From: a virus
Strand: one strand, 5' to 3'
IMG/VR virus record: IMGVR_UViG_3300018916_000015
Span: 1-21,588 of that record
Length of the DNA: 21,588 nucleotides
The notes beneath the pieces were generated by a model. The model ran no database searches. It saw nothing but the letters and a program-made list of their open reading frames with translations, and was not told where the DNA came from. The translations under genes and the position numbers were made by a program. Positions 318 to 21,588 of this stretch are shown one piece after another (position 1 is the first letter of the stretch; every line of letters begins with the position of its first letter).

Positions 318-333
318 CTAAACAAATAAGTAT

Positions 334-2623: not shown

Positions 2624-2633
2624 TTATATAAAA

Positions 2634-2655: not shown

Positions 2656-2688
2656 GTGAGAGATTACCAATGCTCCATTGATAGCAAG

Positions 2689-2694: not shown

Positions 2695-2696
2695 GC

Positions 2697-3071: not shown

Positions 3072-3106
3072 AAAATTTGCTGAAAGTTTAATCGAAATAA
3101 CAAATA

Positions 3107-3115
3107 ATTATACCA
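3107..3115 (-). promoter_or_regulatory. Extended -10 promoter element for gene 2697-3071
   Basis: The minus strand reads TGGTATAAT, an extended -10 (TGN-TATAAT), about 36 nt upstream of the ATG at 3071. The -35 region is not convincing, which is usual for extended -10 promoters. Confidence 0.5.
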
Positions 3116-3164
3116 TAATTTCATTACATTGATTTACGCCTAGATAACAATTGGAACTTAATGG

Positions 3165-3413
3165 TTAATCGTAAGGTGTAAAATAATCAACCGATTGATT
3201 TAATGCAGTTGCTAATTTAAAAAGTGTAGTGGCGTCTATTGCATTTGTCCCTGTTTCATAAAAAGAAACAGTACGAGGTGAGACTTGAATTATTTGCGCT
3301 AATCTTGCTTGTGTCATATCATTTGCAATTCTCGCAAGCCGAATTTTTAAACCGATTTTTTTATTTAATAGATGTGTTGAATGTTTGTAAGTCGGAATAT
3401 TAATAACGGTCAT
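3165..3413 (-). CDS. HTH transcriptional regulator (Cro/CI-type)
   Basis: From the ATG at 3413 the product is 82 aa. Residues 20-75 form a five-helix HTH_3 (Cro/C1-type) domain: IGLKIRLARIANDMTQARLA, then the recognition region VSPRTVSFYETG, then DATTLFKLATALNQSVDYF. The frame stays open upstream to 3503, but those 30 extra residues would run into the portal leader and do not resemble the domain; a TATAAT at 3441-3446 sits well for the shorter start. The protein is little more than the DNA-binding domain, so it is Cro-like rather than a CI with a cleavable C-terminus. It is divergent from the portal gene, with overlapping promoters between them, so it probably represses its own gene and/or the portal-head operon. 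Confidence 0.82.
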   Translation of the reverse strand: MTVINIPTYKHSTHLLNKKIGLKIRLARIANDMTQARLAQIIQVSPRTVSFYETGTNAIDATTLFKLATALNQSVDYFTPYD

Positions 3414-3470
3414 GGTATAGCCAATACTGGATAACTTTAAATTATAGCAAACGCCCATATTATTAGGAAA
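3414..3470. promoter_or_regulatory. Overlapping divergent promoters between HTH regulator and portal
   Basis: On the minus strand TTTCCT (3470-3465), an 18-nt spacer and TATAAT (3446-3441) form a candidate promoter for the regulator. On the + strand TATTAT at 3458-3463 is a candidate -10 for the portal transcript. The two would interfere, since the minus -35 lies at the + start region. GTAT-AGCCA-ATAC at 3415-3427 is a small inverted repeat beside the regulator's start codon and could be an operator. All calls are by eye. Confidence 0.4.
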
Positions 3471-3503
3471 TAGCAATCGAGCAACACAAAGGATCGAAAA
3501 CAC

Positions 3504-5684
3504 TTGCCACTAGAGACGATGCTTCAAGCGGTTTTAGAACGGGACGGGCGCGCAATGAGTGCTGCCACCGTTGTCGCTTTGCATTGTCAACAAATGCGTG
3601 AATGGGGTTGCCGTGGTGGTAACTTAGAATTCCGACCTATTCAAGATGATCCTAAGAACAATCGTCTGAAATTCATCACAAGACAACATTCGATAAATCG
3701 GTTGTCTTCCCGCCTCAATTATGTGATGGATGCTTTCACTTGTAGAGGCGAAATTTGCTGGTTCTTTCTGCCCAATCCCGACAACTCAGGCGATTACATA
3801 ATTGATTTTTTTGTCGGTGGATTGAACAACCCCGATCCTGAGTACAAATGTTTTTATAAACCAGGCGGCAGGGACTTAGAAAAAGTTATCATAATTTACT
3901 CATACGATCAAGACACTCCCATGCACGGGGGAAGTAAAAAACGGTGGGTAACAATTGAAATAGACTCATTAAAAATTAAACAATCAGAGTCAATTGCTAA
4001 ACCATCTTTTAATCAATTTACCCACAATTTAAACGCTCAAGTTTATGGTGCATTTGGTCAAGCAAATGCACAAGTTTATGACAATCCTTTCGCCCCGTCT
4101 TTACCGATTAGAATCTCTAAAAACAATGCACGTAGATCCGGTCAGCAAGGATCAGATGATTTTAATTGGGTAAAATCTTTAATCGAAGACTATGAAGATT
4201 TAATCGAAAAAGCTCATGGCAATCTCAAGCGATTCTCGAATCCGTCCCTTATAACAACTAGAAGCGCAAGCGAAGTTTTAGAAAACGGTCGTGGGTCAAT
4301 TCCTCAAACATGGGCAAGTGCTAACCGTTATGTTGATAATTATGGTGATCGTCATAGTGGCTCAACTCATCCTGAAGATTCCCCATCGTGGGATATGTCC
4401 CGGACTCATGGCGGGTTTATTTCGACTTCGAGTGGCTCTATTGCAGACATCATCGGGGGCGTATCAGACGGTGAACGTTTTGGATATATTCAAGCAGATG
4501 CTGTGTCAGGCGATCAAAATTTATGGATAAAACAAATCAGGGAATTGATTCATTGGATTATCGGTGGAATAGACCCGCTAGGTATAAGTTCAAGCATTAC
4601 ATTTGCCGAATCCCGTACTCTTTTTGGTCGTGTCCAAAATACAGCCGACTTGAAAGCAGAAAGTTTGTACCGAGAGGGACTTTGCGAGGTATATGAAGAG
4701 TGCATCTTGCATCAAGAGAATATTTTTAAACAATGGTTATTCGGAATACTAAAAAATAATTTTGGTGATGCATTTCAAAATTTAACAAGTTGGAAACAAT
4801 TGACCGATGAACAGTGCCAACAAATTGCCAATTTAGCTAAAGAAGGATCAATCAATCTCCCTCAACCTAAAGGACTTCTACCATTTGGCGATCGCTCTCT
4901 TAATTGGAGATTCACAAGAGAAGTTTTCCAACTTACAACTCGTGAGGTTTTAGACCTTAGTATCAGCGCACGAAATGATCGAGAAGATGGCGTAAGTCAA
5001 GAGACTGTTTTAAGGCGTCAATTTCCTTGGATGTCCGATCAAGAAATCAAAAATGCAATGTCGGGTTTTAGTCCCCGTGTGGTCGGGGCGGCATCCGGCG
5101 CAATACAGCAGTTATTGCAAATGTACAACGCATTTATGAATATGCCCGATCCTGATCCAACAATTCGATCGAGTTTACCAAAAGGCGTTGATCCACCGCC
5201 GTGGGGACTCAGGTTAGGACTTCCAGATTTATTAGATCAAGCGCTTCTCACATTAAAGAAAGAAATCAGTTATGGTCAACCACAATACGAACCCGCCGAT
5301 CCTTTACCGCTCGACTTAGAAGCAATCGCAGCACAACTACAACCGCTTTTAAACCAAGGATTATCTAATGCAGAATCTTCAGAACTACTATCAGCAACCG
5401 GGACAATTCCAACAGGGTCAACCTACGGGATACCCAACTTATCCGCAGTACTCAACAGTTACATCAGATCCAATAGATCAAATTTCCAAGGTAGCATCCC
5501 TTTTAGATCATCTGCGGAATCCCTCTACCCGTCCCCAGGCGCTTCCGTCTCAGCCGATCCAACACGAACCCCAATCGACGCCAACGGTCGGGAGTACGGC
5601 TCAGTTTCAGTCAGCCAATCAACAGGATTTAAACCGCCAATACCAGGAAATGGCGTCGATCCAATCTGGCAACAGTTCTACTAA
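3504..5684 (+). CDS. Probable phage portal protein, with a long overlapping C-terminal tail
   Basis: Portal proteins form the dodecameric ring through which terminase packages DNA. This 726-aa product lies between terminase and coat genes, the usual portal position, and its size and mixed alpha/beta content (for example LSSRLNYVMDAFTCRGEICW near residues 66-85) suit the family; no short motif proves it. The start is TTG at 3504 with AAAGGA about 10 nt upstream; an ATG at 3519 is too far from that site. The last 105 or so residues (from about 622) are encoded in the region shared with the next gene in another frame, and are rich in Ser, Pro and Gly, as expected of a disordered tail. Either this tail is a real overprinted extension or the protein's functional part ends earlier. 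Confidence 0.72.
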   Translation: MPLETMLQAVLERDGRAMSAATVVALHCQQMREWGCRGGNLEFRPIQDDPKNNRLKFITRQHSINRLSSRLNYVMDAFTCRGEICWFFLPNPDNSGDYIIDFFVGGLNNPDPEYKCFYKPGGRDLEKVIIIYSYDQDTPMHGGSKKRWVTIEIDSLKIKQSESIAKPSFNQFTHNLNAQVYGAFGQANAQVYDNPFAPSLPIRISKNNARRSGQQGSDDFNWVKSLIEDYEDLIEKAHGNLKRFSNPSLITTRSASEVLENGRGSIPQTWASANRYVDNYGDRHSGSTHPEDSPSWDMSRTHGGFISTSSGSIADIIGGVSDGERFGYIQADAVSGDQNLWIKQIRELIHWIIGGIDPLGISSSITFAESRTLFGRVQNTADLKAESLYREGLCEVYEECILHQENIFKQWLFGILKNNFGDAFQNLTSWKQLTDEQCQQIANLAKEGSINLPQPKGLLPFGDRSLNWRFTREVFQLTTREVLDLSISARNDREDGVSQETVLRRQFPWMSDQEIKNAMSGFSPRVVGAASGAIQQLLQMYNAFMNMPDPDPTIRSSLPKGVDPPPWGLRLGLPDLLDQALLTLKKEISYGQPQYEPADPLPLDLEAIAAQLQPLLNQGLSNAESSELLSATGTIPTGSTYGIPNLSAVLNSYIRSNRSNFQGSIPFRSSAESLYPSPGASVSADPTRTPIDANGREYGSVSVSQSTGFKPPIPGNGVDPIWQQFY

Positions 5685-6225
5685 TAAGCTGAGTCCCGGA
5701 CAATTACAAGCGGTTCAAAATCTACAAAATGCTGTGACGGCATTAGATAAAGAATTACATCAAGCTTACTCGGCAATGGCAGAGATGTATAAATTTGTCG
5801 AAGTAAACAAGCTTTTGAATCAAGAAATTGATGCACTTGATTCAATGCTTAAGCAAACAACGCCATTCATTCAAACCTCACAAGTTTGGATGCAGGATGC
5901 GCTGCAACATGAGACTGTTTTAGAGAATGTTTGCAGTTTGTTAACTTCTCCAGAATTTCTGTTGTACTGGACGTTTGAATCGCTCAAAAATCTCAATTTA
6001 ATTGAGTCTGATTTTGATGCAATTGCTGACACTTATTTGTCCTTTCTTCAAAGTAAGGGCAAGTACAATCCCCAACAGCAACAGCAATCCGTTCCCTTTC
6101 CGCCTTCCCCCGGTCAAAATGTTCCGCAGGTAAACGCAAAGTTACAAGCGGTTGAATTGATGCGATCGGGTAATCCAGAAGCGGCAAGAATGCTGCAACG
6201 GGCAAGAATGCAAGGTGTTTATTAA
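5368..6225 (+). CDS. Unknown head-module protein, possibly scaffold-like; overlaps portal by 317 nt
   Basis: The 285-aa product starts at ATG 5368 with AAGGA about 7-8 nt upstream, so initiation inside the portal gene is well supported. Residues 1-110 are low complexity, rich in Gln, Pro, Tyr and Ser (QNLQNYYQQPGQFQQGQ). Residues 110-235 look helical (AVQNLQNAVTALDKELHQAY, then EVNKLLNQEIDALDSMLKQ), and the C-terminus is again Gln/Pro-rich then helical. Helical, Gln-rich proteins between portal and coat are often scaffolding or minor head proteins; that role is inferred from position and composition. The first 317 nt are read in two frames. The next gene begins 13 nt after its stop with a near-perfect ribosome site. 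Confidence 0.75.
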   Translation: MQNLQNYYQQPGQFQQGQPTGYPTYPQYSTVTSDPIDQISKVASLLDHLRNPSTRPQALPSQPIQHEPQSTPTVGSTAQFQSANQQDLNRQYQEMASIQSGNSSTNKLSPGQLQAVQNLQNAVTALDKELHQAYSAMAEMYKFVEVNKLLNQEIDALDSMLKQTTPFIQTSQVWMQDALQHETVLENVCSLLTSPEFLLYWTFESLKNLNLIESDFDAIADTYLSFLQSKGKYNPQQQQQSVPFPPSPGQNVPQVNAKLQAVELMRSGNPEAARMLQRARMQGVY

Positions 6226-6238
6226 CAGGAGGTAATCT

Positions 6239-6472
6239 GTGTTTTTAGCTCCAATGATCGGCGCGGCGCTTCCGTCAGCGGTTGCAGCAGCAACGTTAGC
6301 GGCGGGTAAAGCAATAGGCGCAGGAGTTGGTCAAGGTGCAGTCAAAATTGTTGGCAACGGGATAAACGCAATTGGTGAGTTGTTAGACGGTGATGGAAAT
6401 GCATCTGTCCCTCCTAATGCAGCACAGCAGGCGTTTATTCAACAGCAGCAAATGATGCAGCAACGTCGCTAA
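6239..6472 (+). CDS. Small Ala/Gly-rich hydrophobic head-module protein
   Basis: The 77-aa product starts at GTG 6239, fixed by AGGAGGT about 7 nt upstream, one of the strongest ribosome sites in the window. Residues 1-45 are Ala/Gly-rich and hydrophobic (APMIGAALPSAVAAATLAAG), able to form a membrane-active or tightly packed helix; residues 55-77 are Gln-rich (AFIQQQQMMQQRR). I do not recognise a family. Strong translation and position in the head operon suggest a structural or internal virion protein made in quantity, perhaps one that interacts with membrane during DNA entry. This is inference. Confidence 0.7.
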   Translation: MFLAPMIGAALPSAVAAATLAAGKAIGAGVGQGAVKIVGNGINAIGELLDGDGNASVPPNAAQQAFIQQQQMMQQRR

Positions 6473-6535
6473 TTCTGCGAATAATTTTCAAATTTCATCT
6501 GTTGATCATATTACAAACGAAAGGACTTAACGAAC

Positions 6536-6946
6536 ATGACTATGATTCGCAATCCATTTAACACAGGCGGTAACTTTGCAGATAACGGAGTCGGTGCGGG
6601 TCAATCTGCAATGCAGGGACTCAACGCCAACCCCGTGACCGGAATTGCTTCTCAGAATGGCGGTCAAATGATGCTGAATCCTCAGCAACAAATGGATTTA
6701 GCACAGAAGCAAGCCCAATCTGCTGCACAGGACAACTTTAATAATTCCGCTCAATCTCAAGCGTTCGGCGCTCAATTGGGTAACGCTTCTGGAAACTTAA
6801 ACACACAACGCCAAATGGCTGTAGCTGCACAAGCAAACGCCGCCAATAACGTCGCTAATCAGTTGAACAATTTACAACAAGCAAGAGCTACCAATGCTCA
6901 GTTGGTACAAGGAGCAATGCAAGGGGCGGCTCAACTATTTCGTTAG
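6536..6946 (+). CDS. Gln/Asn/Ala-rich virion-module protein
   Basis: The 136-aa product is extremely rich in Gln, Asn and Ala. After a Gly-rich start (NPFNTGGNFADNGVGAGQSA) residues 45-136 read as one long polar helix (for example QQQMDLAQKQAQSAAQDNF). There is no membrane segment. AAAGGA lies about 12 nt before the ATG at 6536. Such composition is common in internal or ejection proteins and in scaffolds, but no family is recognisable. It lies directly before the coat gene. A later in-frame start at MIRNPF (6542) is possible. Confidence 0.7.
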   Translation: MTMIRNPFNTGGNFADNGVGAGQSAMQGLNANPVTGIASQNGGQMMLNPQQQMDLAQKQAQSAAQDNFNNSAQSQAFGAQLGNASGNLNTQRQMAVAAQANAANNVANQLNNLQQARATNAQLVQGAMQGAAQLFR

Positions 6947-6977
6947 TCCCTGTTAAACAAACCATTCACTAAATTAA

Positions 6978-8193
6978 ATGGCTAACTCTCTTTCTTTAGA
7001 AGACTATCCTGCTATTCTCTCGCAAGAGCTATGGCGTCCTCATCCGTTGTACATTGCACGGTGGGCAATTCAACCGCAATTCTTGCATCGTTCCGACCTT
7101 CAACCGGGCGAAACTTTCCTAATGGATCGTTTCGGTTTCTGGGGGGACTCAGGCGATCTGACGATGGAAGCACGAAGCCGCACCGCCGACCAAATTGTTG
7201 GAACGGAAAATACGCGCCAAATTCCCAAATTTAAAGTCCCGATTACTATTCGGGAATTTACCGGACCGTGGTGATCCAACTGACCCAACACGCCCCGGTA
7301 ATTTGAAGCTTAGTTATCAGTCTTTGATGTTTGCGCGTCGGAACATTTGGGATATCAGCCAAGCTGAACCACTTATACAACCCAGTTTTCATGAGTCAGT
7401 CGGTAGCATCACTCTGTTAGATGATTACCGCAGAACAACCGATCGCTTTTATCTCAATCTGCTAAACTCCGGCACGAACGTATATAACCCCTCAAATATC
7501 CCAGATGGCGGGACATACGACAATGCACCGCCAAAATTTACGGTGGGAGATTTACAACGGGTATTCGAACGGTTGAGACGGGCGAAAACTCCGACCTTTC
7601 CAGACGGTTATTATCATGCGCTGATTGATGATCGGATGTTGTTGCACTTGCAAGATGATCCGAGGTTTCAACAGGTAGTGCAATCAAGTGCTTACTATTC
7701 AGTCCCCATGTCTTTAGTTGAAGATCCTCGATTATTCGGACCCGGTCGGATGCCACCGGCTCAAGGCGCGATCAATTATATGGCGCAGCCTAACCAATTG
7801 GCATTCCAAGGCGCGGGTTTAGGTCAAATCATGCCTGGTATGGATGAAGCAATGATGCCATCGGGACTAATTTTCGGCGGCTTCCGAATATTCACAACGA
7901 ATAACGCATTCACCAGTCGTGTCCAACTGACTTATACAAACGTACCTAACCAACAGCAAGCCTTGCATCCGACCGGAAGCGCGCTACGAACGGCATATAT
8001 GGGATGGTTTTTTGGTGCTAACGCTATTGGGGAAGTATTCGGCGGCGCGCCCGAAGATGGTATTCCGGTTAGGATTCGTAAGAACTTAAACGATGACTAT
8101 CAACGTTTTTTGATTCTTATTTGGCAAGCTTTTTTTGGTCTTGGTCTATTAAATCCTGACTTTATTGTTGCCGCTCGGACTTATGGCGATTAA
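6978..8193 (+). CDS. Major capsid protein, split by a +1 frameshift near 7270
   Basis: The first frame runs 6978-7274 (98 aa); the second is open from 7162 to 8193. Joined, they give about 404 aa. The join reads naturally as REFTGP followed by DPTDPTRPGNLKLSYQS. The C-terminal part looks like an HK97-fold coat protein of the N4-gp56/P22-like group: YHALIDDRMLLHLQDDPRF, then GLIFGGFRIFTTNNAF, then AYMGWFFGANAIGEVFGG and a final aromatic segment before FIVAARTYGD. In frame one the sequence is CCG TGG TGA; removing the T at 7269 gives CCG GGT GAT (Pro-Gly-Asp) and a continuous gene. The second half lacks a ribosome site at its first start codons (TTG 7195), so independent translation is unlikely. 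The options are a sequencing error, a recent inactivating mutation or programmed +1 frameshifting at TGG-TGA. The ATG at 6978 has an AT-rich leader (AAATTAAATGG) and no Shine-Dalgarno site, surprising for a coat gene. Confidence 0.82.
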
Positions 8194-8259
8194 TTAAATT
8201 AGTCCGTTGTTTCATTTAGAAAAATAATCAAATTTCAGCAATAGCTGATTCGTGAAATT

Positions 8260-8946
8260 ATGCCATTCGCTAACATAGGTGAACCGTTTAAGCCTTTGCA
8301 TTTTGGAAATATTGTAGGTGTACTCGATGCGTGGGTGGGTAACGGTATTATCGACTACAACGGCTGTGAACGAAAAAGCGTCTATGCATTAGGTCGTTTA
8401 ACAAGTACTTTGCAAACCGCAATCCCTCTATTTATTCCTAGTTGGAAACGCGATCAGGTAACATTTCCCGACCGCCCTCTAATAATTCCCACAGGCGTAA
8501 CAATCAATCGGGTATCTATTCGGATGCCGGAATACGGTAACTTATTTGAGGGCGTATCTCCTTACGGGTTACTTCCTCAAGGATGTCAGTTAGTCGGTAC
8601 GACTGGGGAAAACATTAAAGTGTCTCCGGCAACAGGCGGAACAACTCACACGGTTACAAGTCCTTTGTTGACAGCAGCAAATAACCTGTATACTCCTGAC
8701 AGTTTTTCAACTGTATGGCGTCGATCAGGCGTTGCCGATCAAGCTGCACCATCTTGGATTACAACCACTACCGCACCCGTAACACCTCAAATTACAATAT
8801 CAAATGCAGGCAACACAGCGGCGGGGACAGGCATTAGACTGTCAGTCGCTAACGCAGTTGCGTTTGTCATTTGTTGGTTTGATTTAGAGATCGATGCCAC
8901 ACCACGCCGTATTCGCGAAATTGAGTTACCTATCCCTCCTGTATAA
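8260..8946 (+). CDS. Probable virion structural protein (head decoration or minor capsid)
   Basis: The 228-aa protein has a beta-rich, Thr/Gly/Pro-rich composition with no signal peptide or membrane segment. It lies 66 nt after the coat gene, the usual site for decoration or head-closure proteins. Visible landmarks are IPLFIPSWKRDQVTFPDRPL (residues 54-73), a Thr-rich middle (TTTTAPVTPQITISNAGN) and a closing motif RRIREIELPIPP. I cannot assign a family. The ATG at 8260 has only a weak GTGA upstream. Role inferred from position and composition. Confidence 0.68.
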   Translation: MPFANIGEPFKPLHFGNIVGVLDAWVGNGIIDYNGCERKSVYALGRLTSTLQTAIPLFIPSWKRDQVTFPDRPLIIPTGVTINRVSIRMPEYGNLFEGVSPYGLLPQGCQLVGTTGENIKVSPATGGTTHTVTSPLLTAANNLYTPDSFSTVWRRSGVADQAAPSWITTTTAPVTPQITISNAGNTAAGTGIRLSVANAVAFVICWFDLEIDATPRRIREIELPIPPV

Positions 8947-8991
8947 TTGATCGGTATGACAATCAACTTATAATAGAGAGCGTGTAACAGT

Positions 8992-9501
8992 ATGGCAATC
9001 ACTGGATTTGTCCCAAATGAAGTCTTGAACCCACAACCCCGATGGATGCCGAATCATCCAGATACTTTATGGTGTACTTTTCTTTCGCAAGAAGTACGAG
9101 TAATTGGAATAACCGAATCAGCATCGGTATTGCAATATCAATGCCGAATTGTCAACAGCACAGACAATCGAGTTTATATTGCAAACGAGTCCCAGTTAAA
9201 GGAAATGTCCGAAGCTAAAACTTATGACTCAACGCCCAAAATAAATAAAGCGCCGTGGGCAGCAATCAAAGATGTATTGCTTAAATTCATGGCTTCTTAT
9301 CCTGTAGATCCTAAGCTACGGGAACAATTAGAGGCGCAAGTCAAGAGCCGGAACAAAGGCATCGCAACAGCAATTATCGAAGAGCGCCAGACTCCGACTG
9401 GTAACTTTATGGGTGCTGCTGATTTGTCTAACCGGATGAAACAACGCAACGAACAATTTCCATGGGATGCCATCGGAGATTTGTTCGATTATTCCGCTTA
9501 A
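8992..9501 (+). CDS. Unknown protein of the head-connector region
   Basis: The 169-aa product is soluble. Its first half looks beta-rich (DTLWCTFLSQEVRVIGITES, then LQYQCRIVNSTDNRVYIAN), its second half helical and charged (DPKLREQLEAQVKSRNKG), ending with NRMKQRNEQFPWDAIGDLF. GAGAG lies upstream of the ATG. It follows the presumed decoration gene and precedes two short genes at connector positions. No family is recognised; a virion or assembly role is inferred from the operon. Confidence 0.65.
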   Translation: MAITGFVPNEVLNPQPRWMPNHPDTLWCTFLSQEVRVIGITESASVLQYQCRIVNSTDNRVYIANESQLKEMSEAKTYDSTPKINKAPWAAIKDVLLKFMASYPVDPKLREQLEAQVKSRNKGIATAIIEERQTPTGNFMGAADLSNRMKQRNEQFPWDAIGDLFDYSA

Positions 9502-9518
9502 ATTTACCTTGAGAAAAT

Positions 9519-9776
9519 ATGCTACCAGAAATAATTCATCTAGAGACTGATTCGATTATCACAGCGAACGTTAGCCGCATCGAATGGGGACACGATGATG
9601 TACCCAAAGAAGCAATGCCTAGTGGTGTTACGGAGTTAACTAATAACAATAAAGTTGTATCCCCCGCGGTAGCTATTGTCCGTTTTGTTGGCGAGGTCGA
9701 TTCAGCGCATAGCTTAATCATCGACCGTTCAAGCGAAGATTTCAAAACGCTTAAAACAGCGTTCAATCGCCCGTGA
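9519..9776 (+). CDS. Unknown small beta-rich protein, translationally coupled to the next gene
   Basis: The 85-aa product starts 17 nt after the preceding stop, with TTGAG upstream of ATG 9519. It alternates short hydrophobic strands and turns (EIIHLETDSIITANVSRIEW, then VSPAVAIVRFVGEVD) and looks like a small beta-barrel or sandwich. Its stop overlaps the GTG start of the next gene (GTGA), suggesting coupled synthesis. The position suggests a small head-tail joining protein; this is inference. Confidence 0.6.
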   Translation: MLPEIIHLETDSIITANVSRIEWGHDDVPKEAMPSGVTELTNNNKVVSPAVAIVRFVGEVDSAHSLIIDRSSEDFKTLKTAFNRP

Positions 9777-10246
9777 TTCTGTCAAAACTCGATCAAGATC
9801 GCGTACGGGGACACTTGGGGTATGATGCTCCTAGAAGTGTCCCCGTTGGTCTTGAGCAAAGGATCGTGCAAGCAATGGAGAATATACGCTCAAGCTATGC
9901 CTACACAGGCGCAGGCGGCATACAGTATTGGCTTAAGCGATGCGATAATGCTTTGATTGCTTCTGACCCTACGGACTCACGGTGCTATTCTCAACGTCAA
10001 TTAATTCTTGGAGATGTCAACCGCTCTACCACTACCGTTGCGGCAATCGATATTGATCGGTGGTATGAATTTTATCTGAAAGAATGCGATCGCCTTGCAT
10101 TCAAACTAAACGTTCCAAACCTCCAACGCCCCGCACAGGCGGCTATGCTTTGGGTTAAATATGGATCAGATTACGTACAAGGCATCAAAGGTAATCCTGA
10201 TACTTGCGTAAGCGATCGTATTTTTCTTAGTCGAAATTTTACATAA
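9773..10246 (+). CDS. Probable head-tail connector-type protein
   Basis: The 157-aa product starts at GTG 9773, overlapping the previous stop by 4 nt. Its opening (LSKLDQDRVRGHLGYDAP) and helical makeup recall small adaptor or connector proteins that follow coat genes in siphophage and podophage operons, but I cannot point to a decisive motif. Later landmarks are AAIDIDRWYEFYLKECDRLA and PAQAAMLWVKYGSDYVQGIK. It is the last gene of the + strand virion operon here; a hairpin begins 5 nt after its stop. No tail gene follows, so any tail module lies outside the window or is absent. Confidence 0.6.
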   Translation: MILSKLDQDRVRGHLGYDAPRSVPVGLEQRIVQAMENIRSSYAYTGAGGIQYWLKRCDNALIASDPTDSRCYSQRQLILGDVNRSTTTVAAIDIDRWYEFYLKECDRLAFKLNVPNLQRPAQAAMLWVKYGSDYVQGIKGNPDTCVSDRIFLSRNFT

Positions 10247-10250
10247 AACG

Positions 10251-10284
10251 AAACCGACACGAGACACAGATGCTCTGTCGGTTT
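10251..10284 (+). terminator. Hairpin ending the virion operon
   Basis: AAACCGACA at 10251-10259 pairs perfectly with TGTCGGTTT at 10276-10284 (9 bp), beginning 5 nt after the last + gene. No long T-run follows, so it is a hairpin terminator of moderate strength or an RNA-end stabiliser. Confidence 0.55.
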
Positions 10285-10383
10285 GTATGATCGATTATTA
10301 CTTCTGTGAATAATGAATCAAACCATACATTTAAGATATCAATTTAATTAAACAACGTCAATCATTTGTCCCGGTTATTGAGA

Positions 10384-10442
10384 TATAATTTAAATACTTT
10401 CTTGGTGGGCTTGGGAATTGCGACGTGTTCCCAAGTTTTTTT
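10384..10442 (+). terminator. TATAAT box followed by an intrinsic terminator; possible very short RNA
   Basis: CTTGGGAA (10410-10417) and TTCCCAAG (10428-10435) form a perfect 8-bp stem with a 10-nt loop and a run of T from 10436, a classical + strand terminator. Only 20 nt upstream lies TATAAT (10384-10389). It may be a back-up terminator for the virion operon, or the pair may make an RNA of roughly 45-50 nt. No good -35 at the usual spacing is seen. On the minus strand it follows the stop of gene 10441-10986 but has no U-tract there. Confidence 0.6.
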
Positions 10443-10986
10443 ATATTTTATTTCCGCCCAAAACATTCCATATACAGTAATCCACAATTTTACCCAAGTA
10501 CATTGCTTTTTCAATATCATTCGCACAAAGCATTAAATCCAAATGGGTTACGTTAAAAGTAAAATATGATGCTTGAGGAACACGGGGGTATATAGCAAAA
10601 AAGATAGTAAATTTACTATTGTCTTCGGTTTGTTCAGTCAAGCTAACCCCTGTCAAAAATCCTTCCTGACTAGTATATCTTTCAACAAAATCGCATACAA
10701 ATTTTGAGTCTTCTGATATATCCTCAATATCTGTAAACGGTATTGGTTTAACGACGTGTTCCCGGATGAAGGCAAGATCGTTTTTATCAGACGGTAGCCA
10801 GCTATAAAATCCAAATTGATTACGACCGACTTTTAATTCATATTTCTCAGGCAGTTTATACGGACTGCCAAAATCTAACGGATTAGACTTTCGATAAACA
10901 TAGTAATAGGAACCGAACTGATCACAGGCTTGATCAAAAGATGGGTAACTCCACTTGCAAATATCTAAAAGACGATCGCGTTCCAT
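10441..10986 (-). CDS. Unknown 181-aa soluble protein
   Basis: The product is soluble, rich in Phe and Tyr, without signal peptide, membrane helices or recognisable motif. It alternates beta-like stretches (SKFTIFFAIYPRVPQASYF, then FNVTHLDLMLCANDI) with helical parts. It starts at ATG 10986, 22 nt inside the end of the upstream minus gene, and stops beside the terminator at 10410-10442. It is the first gene to the left of the repeat-rich region and faces the virion operon. No function can be assigned. Confidence 0.65.
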   Translation of the reverse strand: MERDRLLDICKWSYPSFDQACDQFGSYYYVYRKSNPLDFGSPYKLPEKYELKVGRNQFGFYSWLPSDKNDLAFIREHVVKPIPFTDIEDISEDSKFVCDFVERYTSQEGFLTGVSLTEQTEDNSKFTIFFAIYPRVPQASYFTFNVTHLDLMLCANDIEKAMYLGKIVDYCIWNVLGGNKI

Positions 10987-11159
10987 TGGGGTTTATATGA
11001 TGTGTCCTGGTGTTTAATTGCTAGAATATCATCATATGGCAGATCGAGCTGATCTAGGAGTTCTAAACCCACCCATGGCAAGGCAAAGCAGGATACCGCC
11101 AGCGCTAGGGACTGCACGGGGGATATAACGGACTTCAAGGGGTAGTGCAACTCTATCAC
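10965..11159 (-). CDS. Small unknown protein overlapping the next gene
   Basis: The 64-aa product starts at GTG 11159 in the context AGGTGATAG, which gives only a partial ribosome site. It has a hydrophobic middle (SLALAVSCFALPWVGLELL, about residues 17-35) that could be a short membrane helix, then a polar tail. It overlaps the start of the 181-aa gene by 22 nt, consistent with coupling. It may be a real small gene or a chance open frame. No family is recognised. Confidence 0.4.
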   Translation of the reverse strand: MIELHYPLKSVISPVQSLALAVSCFALPWVGLELLDQLDLPYDDILAIKHQDTSYKPQWNAIVF

Positions 11160-11198
11160 CTGCCGCCGAATTATTCACATCAAAAAATTAATTAAATG

Positions 11199-11231
11199 AA
11201 AAACTCCTCTAGTCCATCAAGAGGAGTTTTT
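11199..11231. terminator. Bidirectional intrinsic terminator
   Basis: AAAAACTCCTCT (11199-11210) pairs over 12 bp with AGAGGAGTTTTT (11220-11231) around a 9-nt loop. A-runs before and T-runs after give a U-tract on either strand. It insulates the leftward genes from the repeat region. Confidence 0.8.
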
Positions 11232-11300
11232 TAATGGGTGCATTCGAGTTGTATGCCTGTAAGACAATTTTATCACAAATTTGGTTTAAAGAATGCGGGT

Positions 11301-11875
11301 GTTTAAGTCACTCGGAGGGGGTACAAGTCCTGATTTAAGGGATTGAGCAACCCTAAACTTAAACTTAAACACTCCAAACGTATACTGGGTATAACATTTA
11401 ATAGTTTAATGTTGAAATCAAACCATTATTAATCCTTTACCCCCCCCCATTAATGACCCCCCCCCATTAAACTATCGCGCCGTTTAGTCGGGTAACTGCT
11501 GTTTAAGCTCTCAAGAGGGGGGTACAAGTCCTAGTTTAAGGAATCACTCAAACCTAAACTTAAACATAAACACCCCAAAGATTTACACCGTATAGGTTTT
11601 AATTGTTTAACCCTAAACCTAAACTATATTGTTCACTCTACCCCCCCCTATTGTTGACCCCCTCCCCCATCATCCCCGGTTAGTTTATTAGTCCCGTCTA
11701 ACTCTAATAGGAGGGGGGTGCAATTAGGGAGGGTAAATATAGGTAATTCTATTTAGATTATTTCTTAAACAATTAAACATATTAAACAATCTATACTGTG
11801 TATGGGTTCTACGTGTTTAAGGTTTTGTTTAGTTTAAGGTATTTTGCGGTAGTCGTTTTTGTACCCCCTTCATCA
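11301..11875. repeat. Three imperfect ~200-bp tandem repeats in a gene-free region; candidate replication origin or partition site
   Basis: No gene is seen from 11232 to 11997. Three degenerate units of about 200 bp follow one another. Each has, in order: a G-run block (GGAGGGGGTACAAGTCC at 11314; GAGGGGGGTACAAGTCCT at 11515; GGAGGGGGGTGCAATTA at 11710), TTAAAC/GTTTAA words (well over ten in all), a TATAC-NNN-GTATA palindrome, and one or two C-runs (11440-11448 and 11456-11465; 11641-11648 and 11657-11666; 11862-11866). Units 1 and 2 are most alike. Iteron-like words, AT-rich stretches and palindromes recall plasmid and phage origins or centromere sites. A ParB-like gene lies 1.2 kb downstream. 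No replication initiator is recognised nearby. Function is inferred. Confidence 0.75.
11381..11804. promoter_or_regulatory. Three TATAC-NNN-GTATA palindromes, one per repeat unit
   Basis: TATAC-TGG-GTATA at 11381-11393 is perfect; TTTAC-ACC-GTATA at 11582-11594 and TATAC-TGT-GTATG at 11792-11804 each have one mismatch. Spacings are 201 and 210 bp. A 5-3-5 palindrome kept in degenerate repeats is what a dimeric DNA-binding protein site looks like. The ParB-like and HTH proteins of this window are candidate binders; that is inference. Confidence 0.55.
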
Positions 11876-15066: not shown

Positions 15067-15294
15067 ATGTTGCGGTTGAATAAATACCAACTTGATAACA
15101 TTGCTTCAATCGTCGGGTTGATCGGTGGCATAAGTGTTGTTTTGACAGCGCAAGGATATTTAGAAGAAAGATTTGGTTTATCTGTATCTGGTGTATGTGT
15201 GGTTTTAAATGGGTATCTTACAAATAAACCTGCTAACGCTTCGCCTGACACAGAAGAGGCAGAAAATATAGAACAACGAAAATCTGATGGATAA
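15067..15294 (+). CDS. Small membrane protein, holin-like
   Basis: The 75-aa product begins with a short basic-amphipathic stretch (RLNKYQLDNIAS), then a hydrophobic segment at about 12-30 (IASIVGLIGGISVVLTAQGY), a charged turn, and a second weaker segment at about 37-52 (GLSVSGVCVVLNGYLTNK), ending in an acidic/polar tail. Size and layout fit small phage holins with two helices, but no lysin gene is visible nearby, so lysis is only one possibility. It overlaps the FHA gene by 8 nt. A TATAAT at 15041-15046 and tandem repeats upstream suggest its own promoter. Confidence 0.6.
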   Translation: MLRLNKYQLDNIASIVGLIGGISVVLTAQGYLEERFGLSVSGVCVVLNGYLTNKPANASPDTEEAENIEQRKSDG

Positions 15295-15733
15295 GCCATA
15301 TTTACTTATCGAAAAAAAGATTGCAAACGAATGGCAATTTGTAGAAAAAATTGAGCTTAAAACTATCACTGATAATCGCGGTAATTGGTTCTGGAAAACA
15401 TATCGGATTGGGCGATCGCCAGAGTGCGAAATTTCAATCAAATGGGCGGGTAATTTAATCAGTAGATTTCAATCATTATTAGAGCGAGACGATCTCGATG
15501 ATGATTATTTTATAGATGATGGCGTCCCCGGTAAAGTAAAAAGCGCCAACGGGACACGGGTAAACGGAATAAAGATTGAGTCGAAAGTTAAGCTCAAACA
15601 CCATGACGTGATCGGGATAGGTTCAGGGGTACGCGCAATTTACTACAACGAAAAAATGCCTATATTACAAACTACTCATGATGAAACCTACACAGGCGAT
15701 ACGGATATCCCAACAGATAACGAATTTAATTAA
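15287..15733 (+). CDS. FHA-domain protein
   Basis: FHA domains bind phosphothreonine peptides. In this 148-aa protein the domain fills residues 5-120: TYRIGRSPECEISI (G42-R43-S44), then LISRFQSLLERD with S59-R60, then SANGTRVNGIKI with the NGTRVNG loop at 88-94, then VKLKHHDVIGIGSGVRAIYY. The Arg and Ser that contact phosphate and the Asn of the last loop are present; the His usually found after Ser-Arg (SRxH) is Gln here. The last 28 residues are Thr/Asp-rich (TTHDETYTGDTDIPTD) and could be a phosphorylation target. It overlaps its upstream neighbour by 8 nt and downstream neighbour by 56 nt. No kinase is encoded in the window, so it may read host Ser/Thr kinases. Confidence 0.88.
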   Translation: MDKPYLLIEKKIANEWQFVEKIELKTITDNRGNWFWKTYRIGRSPECEISIKWAGNLISRFQSLLERDDLDDDYFIDDGVPGKVKSANGTRVNGIKIESKVKLKHHDVIGIGSGVRAIYYNEKMPILQTTHDETYTGDTDIPTDNEFN

Positions 15734-17142: not shown

Positions 17143-17166
17143 AAGGGACTAATCAATAAGTCCCTT
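17143..17166. promoter_or_regulatory. Inverted repeat upstream of the RHH gene
   Basis: AAGGGACT (17143-17150) and AGTCCCTT (17159-17166) form a perfect 8-bp inverted repeat with an 8-nt spacer. It lacks a U-tract on the minus strand and has only TTTT split by no spacer on the + strand, so it may be an operator or a weak terminator in the leftward operon. Confidence 0.45.
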
Positions 17167-17236: not shown

Positions 17237-17476
17237 TTATCCGTAATAATCAAGCGTATCTAGAGCGTCGTCTAATGCTCCAATTATTTTTTTGTCGGCT
17301 TCTATCTGTCCTGCTAAAAACTCATCTTTGACACCAAAATGTGTATACCTGTTTTCTCGGTCTAACAATCTCCTATTTAAAATATATTTTATATCGGCAA
17401 GCATGGTATTAACGCTATCTGATGCGGTGTACTTTCTAATCAAAACCTCCAGGTCGTTTTTGTTTTCCGATCTCAT
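17237..17476 (-). CDS. Unknown 79-aa helical protein
   Basis: The product is acidic, predicted helical, without membrane segment (DLEVLIRKYTASDSVNTMLA, then DKKIIGALDDALDTLDYYG). The ATG at 17476 overlaps the previous stop by 4 nt (ATGA), so it is translationally coupled. No family is recognised. A gap of about 110 bp without gene follows on its 3' side. Confidence 0.6.
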   Translation of the reverse strand: MRSENKNDLEVLIRKYTASDSVNTMLADIKYILNRRLLDRENRYTHFGVKDEFLAGQIEADKKIIGALDDALDTLDYYG

Positions 17477-17718
17477 ATATCCATTAAATAAGCGTTTTGT
17501 ATTTCCGCTTCTGTCCCTGTGATTGACTTGGTTAACGCTTGAGCGTAGGCGTTGTCCGTTCTACTTTTGGCGGCTAACAATACGCTCGCTAATTCTGGAT
17601 TGTCTATACTGTTGATGATGTCATGTTGCTGTTGATCAAAATAAGAATGTCCCGTCTGAATGTTTTGACTTGTCACATTCGATTGTTTTTTTAACTGAGA
17701 TAAGTGACTTAAGAACAT
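17473..17718 (-). CDS. Unknown 81-aa protein overlapping the HNH gene
   Basis: The product is polar, rich in Gln, Ser and Ala, likely helical (DQQQHDIINSIDNPELASVL, then AQALTKSITGTEAEIQNAY). It begins at ATG 17718, 83 nt before the HNH gene ends, in another frame; GGAAG about 10 nt upstream is a usable ribosome site. Its stop overlaps the next start. No family is recognised; it may assist the HNH protein, which is inference. Confidence 0.55.
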   Translation of the reverse strand: MFLSHLSQLKKQSNVTSQNIQTGHSYFDQQQHDIINSIDNPELASVLLAAKSRTDNAYAQALTKSITGTEAEIQNAYLMDI

Positions 17719-18079
17719 GAGTTTGACTTCCGTATTGAATCGAATAACCTGATTTTAACAGATTTTTTATTTGAATTGTGTTTCTGTTGAAATGACGATT
17801 AGGCTTTTGAATGTAATTTATGTCCCGGTGGACGTAGTGATGACACTCGGAACATAACGGAAAAAGATGCACCCCTAAGATTAAGTCGTCTAATAGTAGC
17901 TTTGATGATGCGATGGTAGGCTCCTCAACGTATTGAACATGGTGAGATACTTTGCTAGGGCGTCGTTGGCAAATGCAGCACACGGGACACATCTGTTTCG
18001 CTTTGATAGAAATTTGACGCCATAGAATTCCATAGCGATCATCAATTTCATTGTCAAGGATTATCTTAGCTTTCCCCAT
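17636..18079 (-). CDS. HNH endonuclease-type zinc protein
   Basis: From ATG 18079 the product is 147 aa (ATG at 18091 and 18100 are alternatives; GGGGAGAG just before 18079 favours the shortest). It shows two zinc-binding pairs, CPVC and CSEC, around an HNH-like core: KVSHHVQY, then GVHLFPLCSECHHYVHRDI. The Asn of the classical HNH is His here (GVHLF), a tolerated variant. HNH proteins nick or cut DNA; near terminases they assist packaging, but this one sits 16 kb from the terminase and directly after the membrane ATPase, overlapping that gene by 14 nt. A link to DNA processing for the ATPase is attractive but inferred. Its end overlaps the next gene by 83 nt. Confidence 0.82.
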   Translation of the reverse strand: MGKAKIILDNEIDDRYGILWRQISIKAKQMCPVCCICQRRPSKVSHHVQYVEEPTIASSKLLLDDLILGVHLFPLCSECHHYVHRDINYIQKPNRHFNRNTIQIKNLLKSGYSIQYGSQTHVLKSLISVKKTIECDKSKHSDGTFLF

Positions 18080-19592
18080 TGCTCTCCCCATTGTTTTCAC
18101 CGTTTAAAAATTCCATAACGTTAGCTAGAATATCGTCGTTGATTTGTTTTTCAGCAAGCAATTCAATTTGCTGTTTAATCTCTTGTCCCGTCGCCTGTTT
18201 GTTGCCTGCGATGTACCAATTACGCAATTGAATAAGGTAGTTTTCGCCCGGATATTTCGAGGCATCCGGCAAAGGTGTATCAGGATAATTATCAACTCTC
18301 TCGAATTCGTCCACTACCTCGAACGGAATTTTAGTCACGTCTATGTATGGCATAGGCACGACCTCCGGCTCACAGTCGGCTTTCCGCAGCACAACCGACC
18401 GCGCCTTGCAATTATTCCGGTTGTTTGGGTCAATTAAACCGACACTAACCAGGACAGAATTTAACGCATGAATTCCCATCGTCAATTTCTTCCGGTCAAA
18501 ATCGCTAGGGAATGGAGTGTTAGGGTCACTGACAGCATTGTCAAATAAAACCAATTGACCTGCATTGTAGAAATCGCTACCAACACCTGTCAAATCTTTT
18601 TTCCCCGAATGCATCACTAACAGTACTCGAATGCCTGTATCAATTTTATTAGGTAGTCGCTTCGCCCATTTACGCCCCTCAAACACAATTGCGAAAATCC
18701 ATTTAACCAATTGATCGCCTAAGTCCTTTCCTAGACGGTTATAAAGTCCTATCCATTCATCAATGATTAAGAATATAGGCGGGGACTCACGATCGCCTGC
18801 TTTTTGTCGTCTGATCATTTCCAGATAAACGCTTTCAGTCCGGTTGTAGATTTCCATTGGATCGCTAAGTGTCATTGCAATCTCAACGTCTTCTGGTAAT
18901 TGGGGGAACAACCGATCAGCTTTAGGATGATACGAGACGTTGCAGTAAGTAAAATCTGTTTGGGGGACACTGGCAAGGATGCTTGCACCCCATGCTTGCA
19001 TTAATGAAGATTTACCTGAACCCGCTTTACCGATAACGCCGCCGCCTCCCCAAATGAAGCTTTCATCAAACCAGTCGATATTCAAAAGCTTGGCGACTTT
19101 AGCATCAATCGCTTGAGGATGCCGCTTGACAATGATTGCTTGGGACTCTGCTTGTATGGCTGTTTGTTGAGTCCCTGTTGGCACGTTAGGTTGTATAAGC
19201 CCTTTCAGGTTGAATTCGTGAATATACCGTGCTTGTTTGTGCGCTGGCATACAGTCAACAATTTCAGCCAGCAACTCTAACCCTTTCATTTTAGATAAAG
19301 CGGCGTCTGTTTGTTGTGTGACGGTCAACTCGTCTGCAATACCCTTTTTCTCGAAGTTGTCATGTACTTTACCGAGTGCAAACAACCTTTCGTTTTTCTT
19401 GACAACTGCAATCTGCCCAGCAGCGCATCCCATTCCAGCAATGAAATAAAGTAGCTTTGACACTTTTGGTAAGTTGTTGAAGATAACCGGGACAGATAAA
19501 GAAGTGATTGCCGCCGCCGTTAAAATAAAAGCACTCGCTTGACTATTGCTTATAATCTTGCGAGTGTTTGAAATTTCATTTGATAGTCTCAT
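18066..19592 (-). CDS. Membrane-anchored P-loop ATPase (FtsK/HerA/coupling-protein-like)
   Basis: The 508-aa protein has two membrane helices at about residues 19-38 (SAFILTAAAITSLSVPVIF) and 46-63 (LLYFIAGMGCAAGQIAVV), a linker, then an ATPase domain with Walker A GKAGSGKSS at 188-196, Walker B FLIIDEW at 274-280 and a following strand LLVMHSG at 324-330. The C-terminal 80 residues are helical and acidic. Two N-terminal helices before a RecA-like motor is the layout of FtsK-type translocases and type IV coupling proteins (VirD4/TraD). It has no recognisable gamma domain or T4CP all-alpha domain, so the exact family is open. The ATG at 19592 has GAAGGG upstream. It follows five or more small membrane or helical genes and precedes an HNH gene. 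It probably pumps DNA or protein at the membrane. Confidence 0.85.
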   Translation of the reverse strand: MRLSNEISNTRKIISNSQASAFILTAAAITSLSVPVIFNNLPKVSKLLYFIAGMGCAAGQIAVVKKNERLFALGKVHDNFEKKGIADELTVTQQTDAALSKMKGLELLAEIVDCMPAHKQARYIHEFNLKGLIQPNVPTGTQQTAIQAESQAIIVKRHPQAIDAKVAKLLNIDWFDESFIWGGGGVIGKAGSGKSSLMQAWGASILASVPQTDFTYCNVSYHPKADRLFPQLPEDVEIAMTLSDPMEIYNRTESVYLEMIRRQKAGDRESPPIFLIIDEWIGLYNRLGKDLGDQLVKWIFAIVFEGRKWAKRLPNKIDTGIRVLLVMHSGKKDLTGVGSDFYNAGQLVLFDNAVSDPNTPFPSDFDRKKLTMGIHALNSVLVSVGLIDPNNRNNCKARSVVLRKADCEPEVVPMPYIDVTKIPFEVVDEFERVDNYPDTPLPDASKYPGENYLIQLRNWYIAGNKQATGQEIKQQIELLAEKQINDDILANVMEFLNGENNGESNGES

Positions 19593-19601
19593 TTGTCCCT
19601 T

Positions 19602-20024
19602 CTATGAATAAAGACGTGCAAGTGTTTGTTCGATCAATGCTGCTATTTCTAGCGTTTCGTGTATGTATTGCTTGCGTGATTCGTTGAAGCGATTAACGAG
19701 TGAATCCATAAAATTATTTAATAGAACTTCATCAAATAAATCGTTCGCTTTGTTAGTCTGGTGTAATTTAATCAAGTTATCTTGACTTTCTAAGTCTTCA
19801 GATATTTTGTCGTATTTAATTGACAATAGCAACAAAAGGGATTCGACTATTTCAGGTTTAGCGAGTGGATATTTTTTGTAAATACCTTCTCGTATCAATG
19901 CCATAGATGCGTCAATTATATTCTTATTAGTCGGTGGTTTACCATCGAGTTTTTCTAAGATTTTGACTTCAGTTTCATTTAAATCGATAATACTGAAGAT
20001 CTTTTTAACGTCATCGAAATGCAT
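19602..20024 (-). CDS. Unknown 140-aa helical protein preceding the ATPase
   Basis: TTAGGAGCATAATTATG sets the start at ATG 20024, not at the upstream ATG 20051, which lies inside the previous gene. The product is all-helical, charged and soluble (DVKKIFSIIDLNETEVKILEK, then KPEIVESLLLLLSIKYDKIS, then ETLEIAALIEQTLARLY). No motif is recognised. It lies 2 nt after the stop of the small membrane gene and 10 nt before the ATPase start, so it may be a cytoplasmic partner of the ATPase. Confidence 0.7.
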   Translation of the reverse strand: MHFDDVKKIFSIIDLNETEVKILEKLDGKPPTNKNIIDASMALIREGIYKKYPLAKPEIVESLLLLLSIKYDKISEDLESQDNLIKLHQTNKANDLFDEVLLNNFMDSLVNRFNESRKQYIHETLEIAALIEQTLARLYS

Positions 20025-20026
20025 AA

Positions 20027-20314
20027 TTATGCTCCTAATCCTACTAAACAACCGATAGCAAACGCGAAAATAAAAGCTGCTATCAAAACTAAATAATACC
20101 AGCTTGCAAGCTTAAGCGTATAGCTGATTGTTTGTTCTAATTTGATGCTTGAAGCAATCGCATCTTTAACAATTTGAAACCCAACGCCGCATAGTAGTCC
20201 TAAAAGGACAAATAACGTTAAAATCCATTGTCCGTAACCCGTTAACGCAAACCCTGTAAGAAGCCCCCCACCGATAAACAATTCTACATACCCCATCCGT
20301 TCTATCGTTTTCAT
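20027..20314 (-). CDS. Small three-helix membrane protein (95 aa)
   Basis: Hydrophobic segments lie at about residues 9-26 (YVELFIGGGLLTGFALTGYG), 29-50 (WILTLFVLLGLLCGVGFQIV) and 72-93 (YYLVLIAAFIFAFAIGCLVG). Gly-rich helices suggest tight packing. The ATG at 20314 overlaps the previous stop as ATGA, with AAGAGA upstream. No family is recognised. It is the largest of a run of three tiny membrane proteins directly upstream of the ATPase pair. Confidence 0.75.
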   Translation of the reverse strand: MKTIERMGYVELFIGGGLLTGFALTGYGQWILTLFVLLGLLCGVGFQIVKDAIASSIKLEQTISYTLKLASWYYLVLIAAFIFAFAIGCLVGLGA

Positions 20315-20478
20315 TTTGATTTCTCTTGTATAACAACCAACAAAGTTAATAAAATCAACAACAGGGACAAAAAAGCTATGACTTTAAGCGATCCCGATGT
20401 AGTACTCATGACTATACCCGATAGCATAGCTAATGCTAAAGAATCCAAAAAAAGCATTATCCAAATATGTATTTTCAT
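20311..20478 (-). CDS. Tiny two-helix membrane protein (55 aa)
   Basis: The frame is open further upstream to 20616, but the region before 20478 is the coding sequence of the preceding 51-aa gene in another frame. From ATG 20478 the product starts MKIHIWIMLFLDSLALAMLS (helix 1), followed by a short loop and helix 2 (LKVIAFLSLLLILLTLLVVI), then a basic end QEKSK. The start overlaps the upstream stop as ATGA and the end overlaps the next start as ATGA. Confidence 0.7.
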   Translation of the reverse strand: MKIHIWIMLFLDSLALAMLSGIVMSTTSGSLKVIAFLSLLLILLTLLVVIQEKSK

Positions 20479-20630
20479 TTGATTTGTCCGATGTAGAATC
20501 CTGCATAAACGCCTGTAGCAAAAACTAAAATGATTGTTGCAACTGGAAGATATGCGGTCGGAGTAAAATGTATCAAACCAGTAATTATTGCTACAGAAAT
20601 ATTCAAAATTATCCAAGTCATTATTTTCAT
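20475..20630 (-). CDS. Tiny two-helix membrane protein (51 aa)
   Basis: A reading on the minus strand from ATG 20630 gives a 51-aa product that begins MKIMTWIILNISVAIITGLI (helix 1) and continues PVATIILVFATGVYAGFYIG (helix 2), ending QIK. Its beginning resembles the next protein (MKIHIWIM), so the two may be diverged duplicates. GAGAAG lies about 6 nt upstream. Its stop overlaps the next start as ATGA. It fills what would otherwise be a gap and explains why the overlapping longer frame at 20311-20616 is spurious in its first part. Confidence 0.7.
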   Translation of the reverse strand: MKIMTWIILNISVAIITGLIHFTPTAYLPVATIILVFATGVYAGFYIGQIK

Positions 20631-20684
20631 GTGTTTCTTCTCATTGTTTGACTGAAAGATTAAAATCGCACCCTGATTGGAAAT

Positions 20685-21158
20685 TCAATAGGACAAATTG
20701 TCGTAAATTTTAGAGGACTCTGAACAGAAATCGTCACGGAATCCGGTCAACTCAGCTTCAACCATATCGCCCTTAGCCAAGAACATAGATGAATCCATCG
20801 AGTATTTAGCTTCCGCTTGTTGTAACCCGTTAACAATGCCTTGGATCTGGGCTTTAGCTTGCATCTCGATTGTTGCACCCCTACCAATCTCACGGGCAAG
20901 AGCAACATTAGTTTTGGCGTGTTCCGCTTTCCAAAAGTTTTGAGATTGCCATGCACCTAATTGTTGTTTTAATGCAATCACGCCTTTTTCAGAAGTTGTC
21001 TTAGGAATGTTCGCTCTGACAGCTAACATCTTTTCAGTATCAGCCAACGTGTTAAGACCAACAAAATCGCCTTTAATTTCGGAAGTAGTTAGGGGCTGAC
21101 CATTCCCTTTATTGTTGTTACCTGAAAGGTGATTGGTCAAGTCCATAAATCCGCTCAT
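20685..21158 (-). CDS. Unknown 157-aa soluble protein with very strong ribosome site
   Basis: AAAGGAGGT sits about 8 nt before ATG 21158, the best Shine-Dalgarno match in the leftward operon, implying high expression. The N-terminus is Asn/Gly-rich (LSGNNNKGNGQP), the rest is helical and Ala/Gln-rich (TNVALAREIGRGATIEMQAK, then QIQGIVNGLQQAEAKY). There is no signal peptide or membrane helix. High synthesis and helical, low-complexity makeup would fit a structural subunit or a scaffold. It overlaps the upstream stop by 4 nt. No family is recognised. Confidence 0.7.
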   Translation of the reverse strand: MSGFMDLTNHLSGNNNKGNGQPLTTSEIKGDFVGLNTLADTEKMLAVRANIPKTTSEKGVIALKQQLGAWQSQNFWKAEHAKTNVALAREIGRGATIEMQAKAQIQGIVNGLQQAEAKYSMDSSMFLAKGDMVEAELTGFRDDFCSESSKIYDNLSY

Positions 21159-21514
21159 TGTGAAACCTCCTTTGATTGTGTACTATTGAAGCTTTGAATG
21201 ACTCTAAAACCGACAAGTCCTGATGTTGAAACCAAAAGACAGAAGATAGTTAACAAGCAGAGTTGTCCTATTAAATCTTCATTCAAAATTTGAAATCTCT
21301 GACGGGACTTATTCGCTTCTCGTTGCATTTGATGAGCCAGTCGCATTGTCTCGTATCTTAGAAGCCAGTCATCTTCCTCTAAGTTATCTTCATCAAAAAT
21401 AGACCGAACAATGCCATTATCTATAAAATAATTAGCATTTATAGATCCGTCCACTACCCCGGTTGTCTTCTTCAAATGAGGTAATTTGAGATTGCTTTGA
21501 CGAGTCTTTATCAT
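21155..21514 (-). CDS. Single-pass membrane protein (119 aa)
   Basis: The product has a polar, acidic N-terminal 80 residues (FDEDNLEEDDWLLRYETMRL then a basic helix HQMQREANKSRQRFQIL) and one membrane helix at about 84-106 (GQLCLLTIFCLLVSTSGLVG), with a short polar C-terminus. It is likely C-terminally anchored with a cytoplasmic head. The first 83 nt overlap the end of the upstream partial gene; a later GTG around residue 21 would reduce the overlap. Its stop overlaps the next start (ATGA). No family is recognised. Confidence 0.65.
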   Translation of the reverse strand: MIKTRQSNLKLPHLKKTTGVVDGSINANYFIDNGIVRSIFDEDNLEEDDWLLRYETMRLAHQMQREANKSRQRFQILNEDLIGQLCLLTIFCLLVSTSGLVGFRVIQSFNSTQSKEVSQ

Positions 21515-21588
21515 TTGGTTTAGTCCCAGCGAGGGTACAAAAGCTAATTAGTATGAACCCTGTCAGCAAGGCAAGCAAGATTCTATTT
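21432..21588 (-). CDS. Partial gene with signal peptide or lipoprotein-like start, cut by window edge
   Basis: Reading leftward from the window edge, the frame starting at 21587 is open for 51 codons: NRILLALLTGFILISFCTLA, then a polar tail (GTKPNDKDSSKQSQITS) ending in YKC and TAA at 21434-21432. The start codon would be just beyond the edge. A basic residue followed by a hydrophobic core and a Cys looks like an export signal; the residues before Cys (ISF) are not an ideal lipobox. It overlaps the next gene by 83 nt, which lowers confidence. If real, it puts an exported protein at the head of the membrane operon. Confidence 0.45.
   Translation of the reverse strand, partial: NRILLALLTGFILISFCTLAGTKPNDKDSSKQSQITSFEEDNRGSGRIYKC

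Follow-up and report, generated by a model that had tools for sequence, protein, structure and literature searches.

Why would a tailed phage carry, beside its head and terminase genes, a second ATPase of the DNA-pump type anchored in the membrane? The question is raised by the IMG/VR virus record IMGVR_UViG_3300018916_000015, whose 21,588 bases (hereafter the window) include a leftward cassette of small membrane proteins and a 508-amino-acid (aa) P-loop ATPase. A preliminary description, made from the letters alone, had seen in this cassette a small DNA-translocation, conjugation-like or virion-extrusion machine. Our analysis indicates with moderate confidence, from sequence comparison, that the ATPase is a divergent member of the FtsK-HerA superfamily that falls in none of its named families. 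We tentatively propose, as a possibility somewhat short of an even chance, that the cassette is a membrane-anchored, non-virion DNA translocase that works on phage DNA within the infected cyanobacterium. Tailed phages already have a terminase, and a second pump that is membrane-anchored and absent from the virion would imply a poorly understood step of infection.

Relatives of the ATPase were detected by tblastn in seven annotated phage records (22-27% identity, E 7e-10 to 4e-3), all of them N-1/A-1 group myophages of Anabaena, Nostoc and Dolichospermum. As OR360731 and KU234533 are both A-1, these records represent six isolated phages, namely A-1(L), N-1, YongM, YongM2, Elbi and Dfl-JY23, in which the gene is labelled 'DNA translocase FtsK'. 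One study, which lists the YongM gene as 'DNA translocase FTSK', counts it among the presumed-essential ones (PMC11356776). A further member, more distant and of a third lineage, lies in a metagenomic cyanomyophage contig rich in the cyanobacterial HIP1 octamer (L016/G003, hereafter L016). Scans of genome contigs and further viral sequences with single members, limited by the peptide patterns used, returned no more relatives, and cyanobacterial chromosomes were covered by two short-peptide scans. At least three lineages of cyanophages carry the ATPase, and since some of the isolates grow on a model strain, Anabaena sp. PCC 7120, it can be tested directly.

Hydropathy places two N-terminal hydrophobic helices of the window ATPase at about residues 20-38 and 46-64, followed by a Walker A motif (GKAGSGKS, 19008-19031), a Walker B motif (IFLIIDE, ~18756-18776) and an EGRK sequence with a candidate arginine finger (18669-18680). 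The D-E pair of Walker B and the arginine of EGRK are each invariant in all eight aligned family members. The third motif of the FtsK-HerA superfamily combines a conserved arginine with a polar residue, mostly Gln (PMC11703096); the window ATPase has His at this usual Gln sensor position (~18609-18611), and is one of seven aligned members that do, the eighth, from L016, having Gln. Residues 62-370 match phrog_38189 (E 1.4e-15), and a profile of the eight members retrieved from the PDB HerA chains (9c1m, E 6e-5; 8xau, 0.004; 8ziq, 0.008) and EccC5 (0.008), with Walker A, Walker B and EGRK collinear in the HerA/EccC matches, together with weaker matches to packaging nucleoside triphosphatases. 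The curated models responded poorly: the FtsK_SpoIIIE Pfam model stayed below its gathering score (best E 0.1, in two of the eight members), HerA models were not reached (DUF87 E 0.039; NCBIfam HerA 17 bits against a cutoff of 970, L016 member), none of the eight members matched T4SS-DNA_transf or TrwB in Pfam up to E 10 within the HMMER filters, and the Zot Pfam model gave no match to the ATPase. The membrane-anchored, pump-type ATPase of the preliminary description is supported by these data, and the comparison it had suggested with FtsK, HerA, TraD and Zot succeeded for HerA/EccC structures but not for the curated FtsK, HerA, VirD4/TraD and Zot models.

A further match common to all eight members is phrog_2666, which carries the label terminase large subunit (best E 2.8e-4); their P-loop aligns at profile position ~325. 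Since this position is unlike the usual N-terminal motor of a terminase, the label may be wrong. Taken at face value, the match would suit a motor that assists packaging or docks procapsids, delivering DNA or terminase to the membrane, and membrane-containing phages are indeed packaged by FtsK-HerA motors (PMC11703096). However, the window and the N-1 group each encode their own terminase, and with the label itself in doubt we regard this role as the least probable of those considered here.

In the six isolates the ATPase gene ends a recurrent series: a bitopic protein (94-100 aa), a soluble 150-aa protein, small open reading frames (ORFs), a three-helix membrane protein (91-95 aa) and the ATPase. 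These neighbours are under purifying selection (median ratio of nonsynonymous to synonymous substitution 0.11-0.20), and the cassette is conserved within the N-1 group. The window cassette agrees with the N-1 type in gene kinds, order, topology and, approximately, lengths, and membrane helices precede the motor in each ATPase lineage; conservation likely extends to the window, although this is not proven. Among 1488 ORFs the window 157-aa protein ranks first against a profile of the N-1-type 150-aa family, a score equalled by 5 of 1000 full shuffles and 31 of 1000 block shuffles, which is suggestive only of homology. By position and topology the 119-aa protein is the counterpart of the 94-100-aa bitopic protein and, by length as well, the 95-aa protein that of the 91-95-aa membrane protein; neither pairing gained sequence support in the shuffle test, and profile comparison of single small proteins gave nothing significant. 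The expectation that small membrane genes accompany the ATPase is borne out, such a set being present in the relatives too. A similar neighbourhood was recovered in six cyanophages, and no counterpart of the 140-aa protein was identified in N-1-type phages. The supposed partnership of nuclease and ATPase found no support: no relative examined has an HNH gene adjoining the ATPase.

The wider surroundings differ between lineages. In the N-1 group a primase gene lies upstream of the cassette and helicase and DNA polymerase B genes lie downstream. In L016 (1554-7149) an actin-like partition protein and small membrane proteins are encoded upstream of the ATPase and a membrane-anchored M23 plus lysozyme cell-wall enzyme downstream. 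This enzyme, together with the EccC5 match, could point to conjugation- or type VII-like export of DNA or protein, with the ATPase as coupling or secretion motor and the 157-aa protein as substrate. Yet the other lineages have no such wall enzyme next to the ATPase, and it could equally be the phage endolysin, the window holds no relaxase, VirB4 or pore genes, no WXG motif was seen in the 157-aa protein, and three family members used as queries found no ATPase match among 72,556 plasmids. Export appears quite improbable, and the conjugation-like machine first envisaged finds no support. A coupling protein of a type IV secretion system (T4SS) was rejected for want of a T4SS-DNA_transf/TrwB match, of relaxase or T4SS genes in the window and of a plasmid homologue, and a type VII system with a WXG substrate was also rejected.

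Virion inventories bear on the remaining alternatives. Proteomics of YongM virions (PMC8875764 Table 4) lists no product of 48433-51382, and the structural proteins named for A-1(L), gp2-gp34 and gp80-82 (PMC10966104), do not include cassette proteins. Because its products are missing from both lists, the cassette is probably non-virion, which leaves the earlier idea of a virion part or virion-extrusion device unsupported. An inovirus or Zot-type machine was likewise rejected, there being no Zot match and the terminase, portal and capsid genes being those of a tailed phage. A membrane-anchored motor of the DNA-pump type that is not listed in virions might instead be produced early, once an initial stretch of DNA is inside the cell, and pull the remaining phage genome through the membrane. 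Such a genome-entry motor needs early expression, on which a site upstream of helicase and polymerase genes says nothing; we consider it improbable, and rank it next after export.

Superinfection exclusion ranks higher. Small membrane proteins would sit at the entry site while the ATPase blocks or reels back competing phage DNA, as would befit several small, non-virion membrane proteins. The ATPase was not found in 46 records of the S-EIV1 lineage to which the window belongs (six of 78-126 kb, many of them fragments), a search in which the N-1 control was detected. As none of the 46 carries it, the ATPase is a rare module within this lineage, as an accessory defence gene could be, and the L016 ATPase weakly matches the MADS defence ATPase mad8 (E 1e-6) and a defence HerA. 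The N-1 group argues otherwise: each of the six N-1-type isolates keeps the cassette amid its replication genes, which befits a core function more than an accessory one, and purifying selection on it is strong. We judge exclusion unlikely, if less so than export.

A translocase acting on phage DNA is favoured over exclusion, export, genome entry and auxiliary packaging because of the replication-gene context in the N-1 group, the partition gene in L016 and the probable non-virion status. The two N-terminal helices would anchor the ATPase in the host membrane, its FtsK-HerA-type motor facing the cytoplasm. A membrane platform for it would be formed or regulated by the bitopic protein together with the multi-helix and small membrane proteins, and the strongly translated, helical 157-aa protein could serve as a soluble adaptor. 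ATP hydrolysis would then drive the movement or retention of phage DNA at the membrane; replicating genomes might, for instance, be kept tethered or be sorted, or tangled DNA be cleared before packaging by the terminase. That DNA is the substrate, that a complex exists and at which step of infection it acts are points we infer. Several observations weigh against this proposal. The best HerA match is weak (E 6e-5) when unrelated PDB chains score from ~0.002, AlphaFold models of the ATPase (two sequences) reach a predicted local distance difference test score (pLDDT) of only 34, the usual Gln sensor is replaced by His in two of the three lineages, Walker A is degenerate in the L016 ATPase (GNSGSHKS), and the rightward genes adjoining the cassette in the window (antirepressor, ParB-like, VRR-NUC and FHA) are not a replication module. 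Were the translocase confirmed, it would reveal how the host membrane serves some phages in genome handling. More doubtful still is the broader idea that a mobile, phage-encoded complex, different from FtsK, from T4SS coupling proteins and from packaging motors, translocates DNA at the cyanobacterial membrane, where it would organise or segregate replicating phage genomes, and that it has moved between unrelated tailed cyanophage lineages.

Comparison with known systems places the cassette closest to the N-1-type phages, which have in common with the window a homologous ATPase, the two-helix anchor and the kinds and order of upstream genes. They nevertheless belong to another virus lineage, are contractile-tailed and encode PolB, whereas the window has extra 140-aa and HNH genes and small two-helix proteins in place of a soluble 55-68-aa protein. 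HerA, as in HerA-NurA and Sir2-HerA, provides the best PDB profile matches and has the Walker motifs and EGRK region in common with the ATPase, but the family scores far below curated HerA models and no NurA or Sir2 partner was seen; HerA is not known to have an N-terminal membrane anchor. FtsK/SpoIIIE has the same layout of membrane anchor followed by pump ATPase. FtsK usually has four membrane helices, while the window ATPase has two and no recognisable gamma domain. VirD4/TraD and Zot/pI are also membrane-anchored motors, but the ATPase has no Pfam match to either and the window lacks relaxase and filamentous-phage genes. Phage-encoded FtsK/SpoIIIE proteins are already known: the lytic tailed podovirus AP-20-A has one (PHROG_1358) beside its own terminase, in a different PHROG from the window ATPase and, in the part of that report consulted, with no membrane cassette described (PMC13299392). 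The cassette itself is uncharacterised, and no description of it was found in the literature.

The leftward run extends from 21588 to ~17237, from the cut ORF at the right edge to the 79-aa product in the order of Table 1. The preliminary description was right in its genes, its three small membrane proteins, the 508-aa ATPase with two N-terminal helices, the strongly translated soluble protein, whose gene has an AGGAGG site, and a start at the right edge, but it had ended the operon at 17636, short of the limit at 17237, and had extended to the whole run the ATGA 4-nt overlaps that we find at four junctions only (119/157, 51/55, 55/95 and 81/79). Elsewhere in the run, neighbouring genes are spaced by +54, +2 and +9 nt or overlap by more than 4 nt. 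For the 51-, 55-, 95- and 140-aa ORFs of the window, the evidence that they are genes consists of spacing and topology. The 51- and 55-aa genes are likely paralogues, as judged by a product similarity equalled by 1 of 1000 shuffles. The 140-aa protein had no family match in Pfam- and PHROG-type profile searches. The HNH-like protein lies in the operon as described, but its PHROG match is weak and it has no Pfam match. An AlphaFold model of the 157-aa protein (one sequence) gave a pLDDT of 48.

Table 1. Features of the leftward transcription unit, in order of transcription (window coordinates)
Feature	Position	Strand	Basis or family
Signal-peptide-like ORF, cut by contig end	21432..21587	-	
119-aa bitopic protein, one hydrophobic helix near C terminus	21155..21514	-	
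157-aa soluble protein, predicted all-helical, AGGAGG ribosome site	20685..21158	-	
51-aa membrane protein, two helices	20475..20630	-	hydropathy
55-aa membrane protein, two helices	20311..20478	-	hydropathy
95-aa membrane protein, 2-3 helices	20027..20314	-	hydropathy
140-aa helical soluble protein	19602..20024	-	no family match
508-aa membrane-anchored P-loop ATPase	18066..19592	-	probable FtsK-HerA superfamily
HNH-like protein, ~151-154 aa	17636..18091 (ATG 18091 or GTG 18100)	-	phrog_119 E 7.5e-4
81-aa protein	17473..17718	-	
79-aa protein, last gene ahead of terminator-like hairpin	17237..17476	-	
Terminator-like hairpin, closes leftward transcription unit	17143..17166	-	

Sequence comparison identifies the window as a fragment of an S-EIV1-lineage tailed cyanophage and not a plasmid, which accounts for the head and terminase genes beside the cassette. 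Synechococcus phage S-EIV1 is the closest named phage for its terminase (41%) and capsid (31%), and the terminase, portal and capsid regions match contigs G001 (99%, overlap 1-11455) and G002 (61% in the terminase). G001 supports window positions 1-11455; continuity past 11,455 relies on composition, the right half being nearest the far end of G001 (0.66), and on a 149-nt direct repeat that spans the end of the overlap. A chimeric contig is unlikely. The right flank of the cassette lies outside the contig, which ends there. The two copies of the repeat (11317-11465 and 11518-11666) are 73% identical and lie where similarity to G001 stops.

The major capsid gene (6978-8193) is split by a frameshift in the window and unsplit in the near-identical G001, the window being 5 bases shorter in a GGTGGTGGTG stretch; this is likely a sequence or assembly error, and programmed frameshifting was rejected since G001 lacks the frameshift. 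Between 11998 and 14676 the window encodes an antirepressor/BRO-like protein, a 403-aa weakly ParB-like protein with no relatives in the phage collection, and a VRR-NUC protein. An FHA-domain protein follows (15287-15733, Pfam E 8.5e-12), then a membrane protein of 197 aa whose tail is long and helical. Among other replicons, the conjugative Anabaena cylindrica plasmid pANACY.02 (L021) encodes a beta clamp, gamma/tau, delta, a single-stranded DNA-binding protein and the phage-type DNA polymerase B, near E2-like, JAB and ThiF-like genes.

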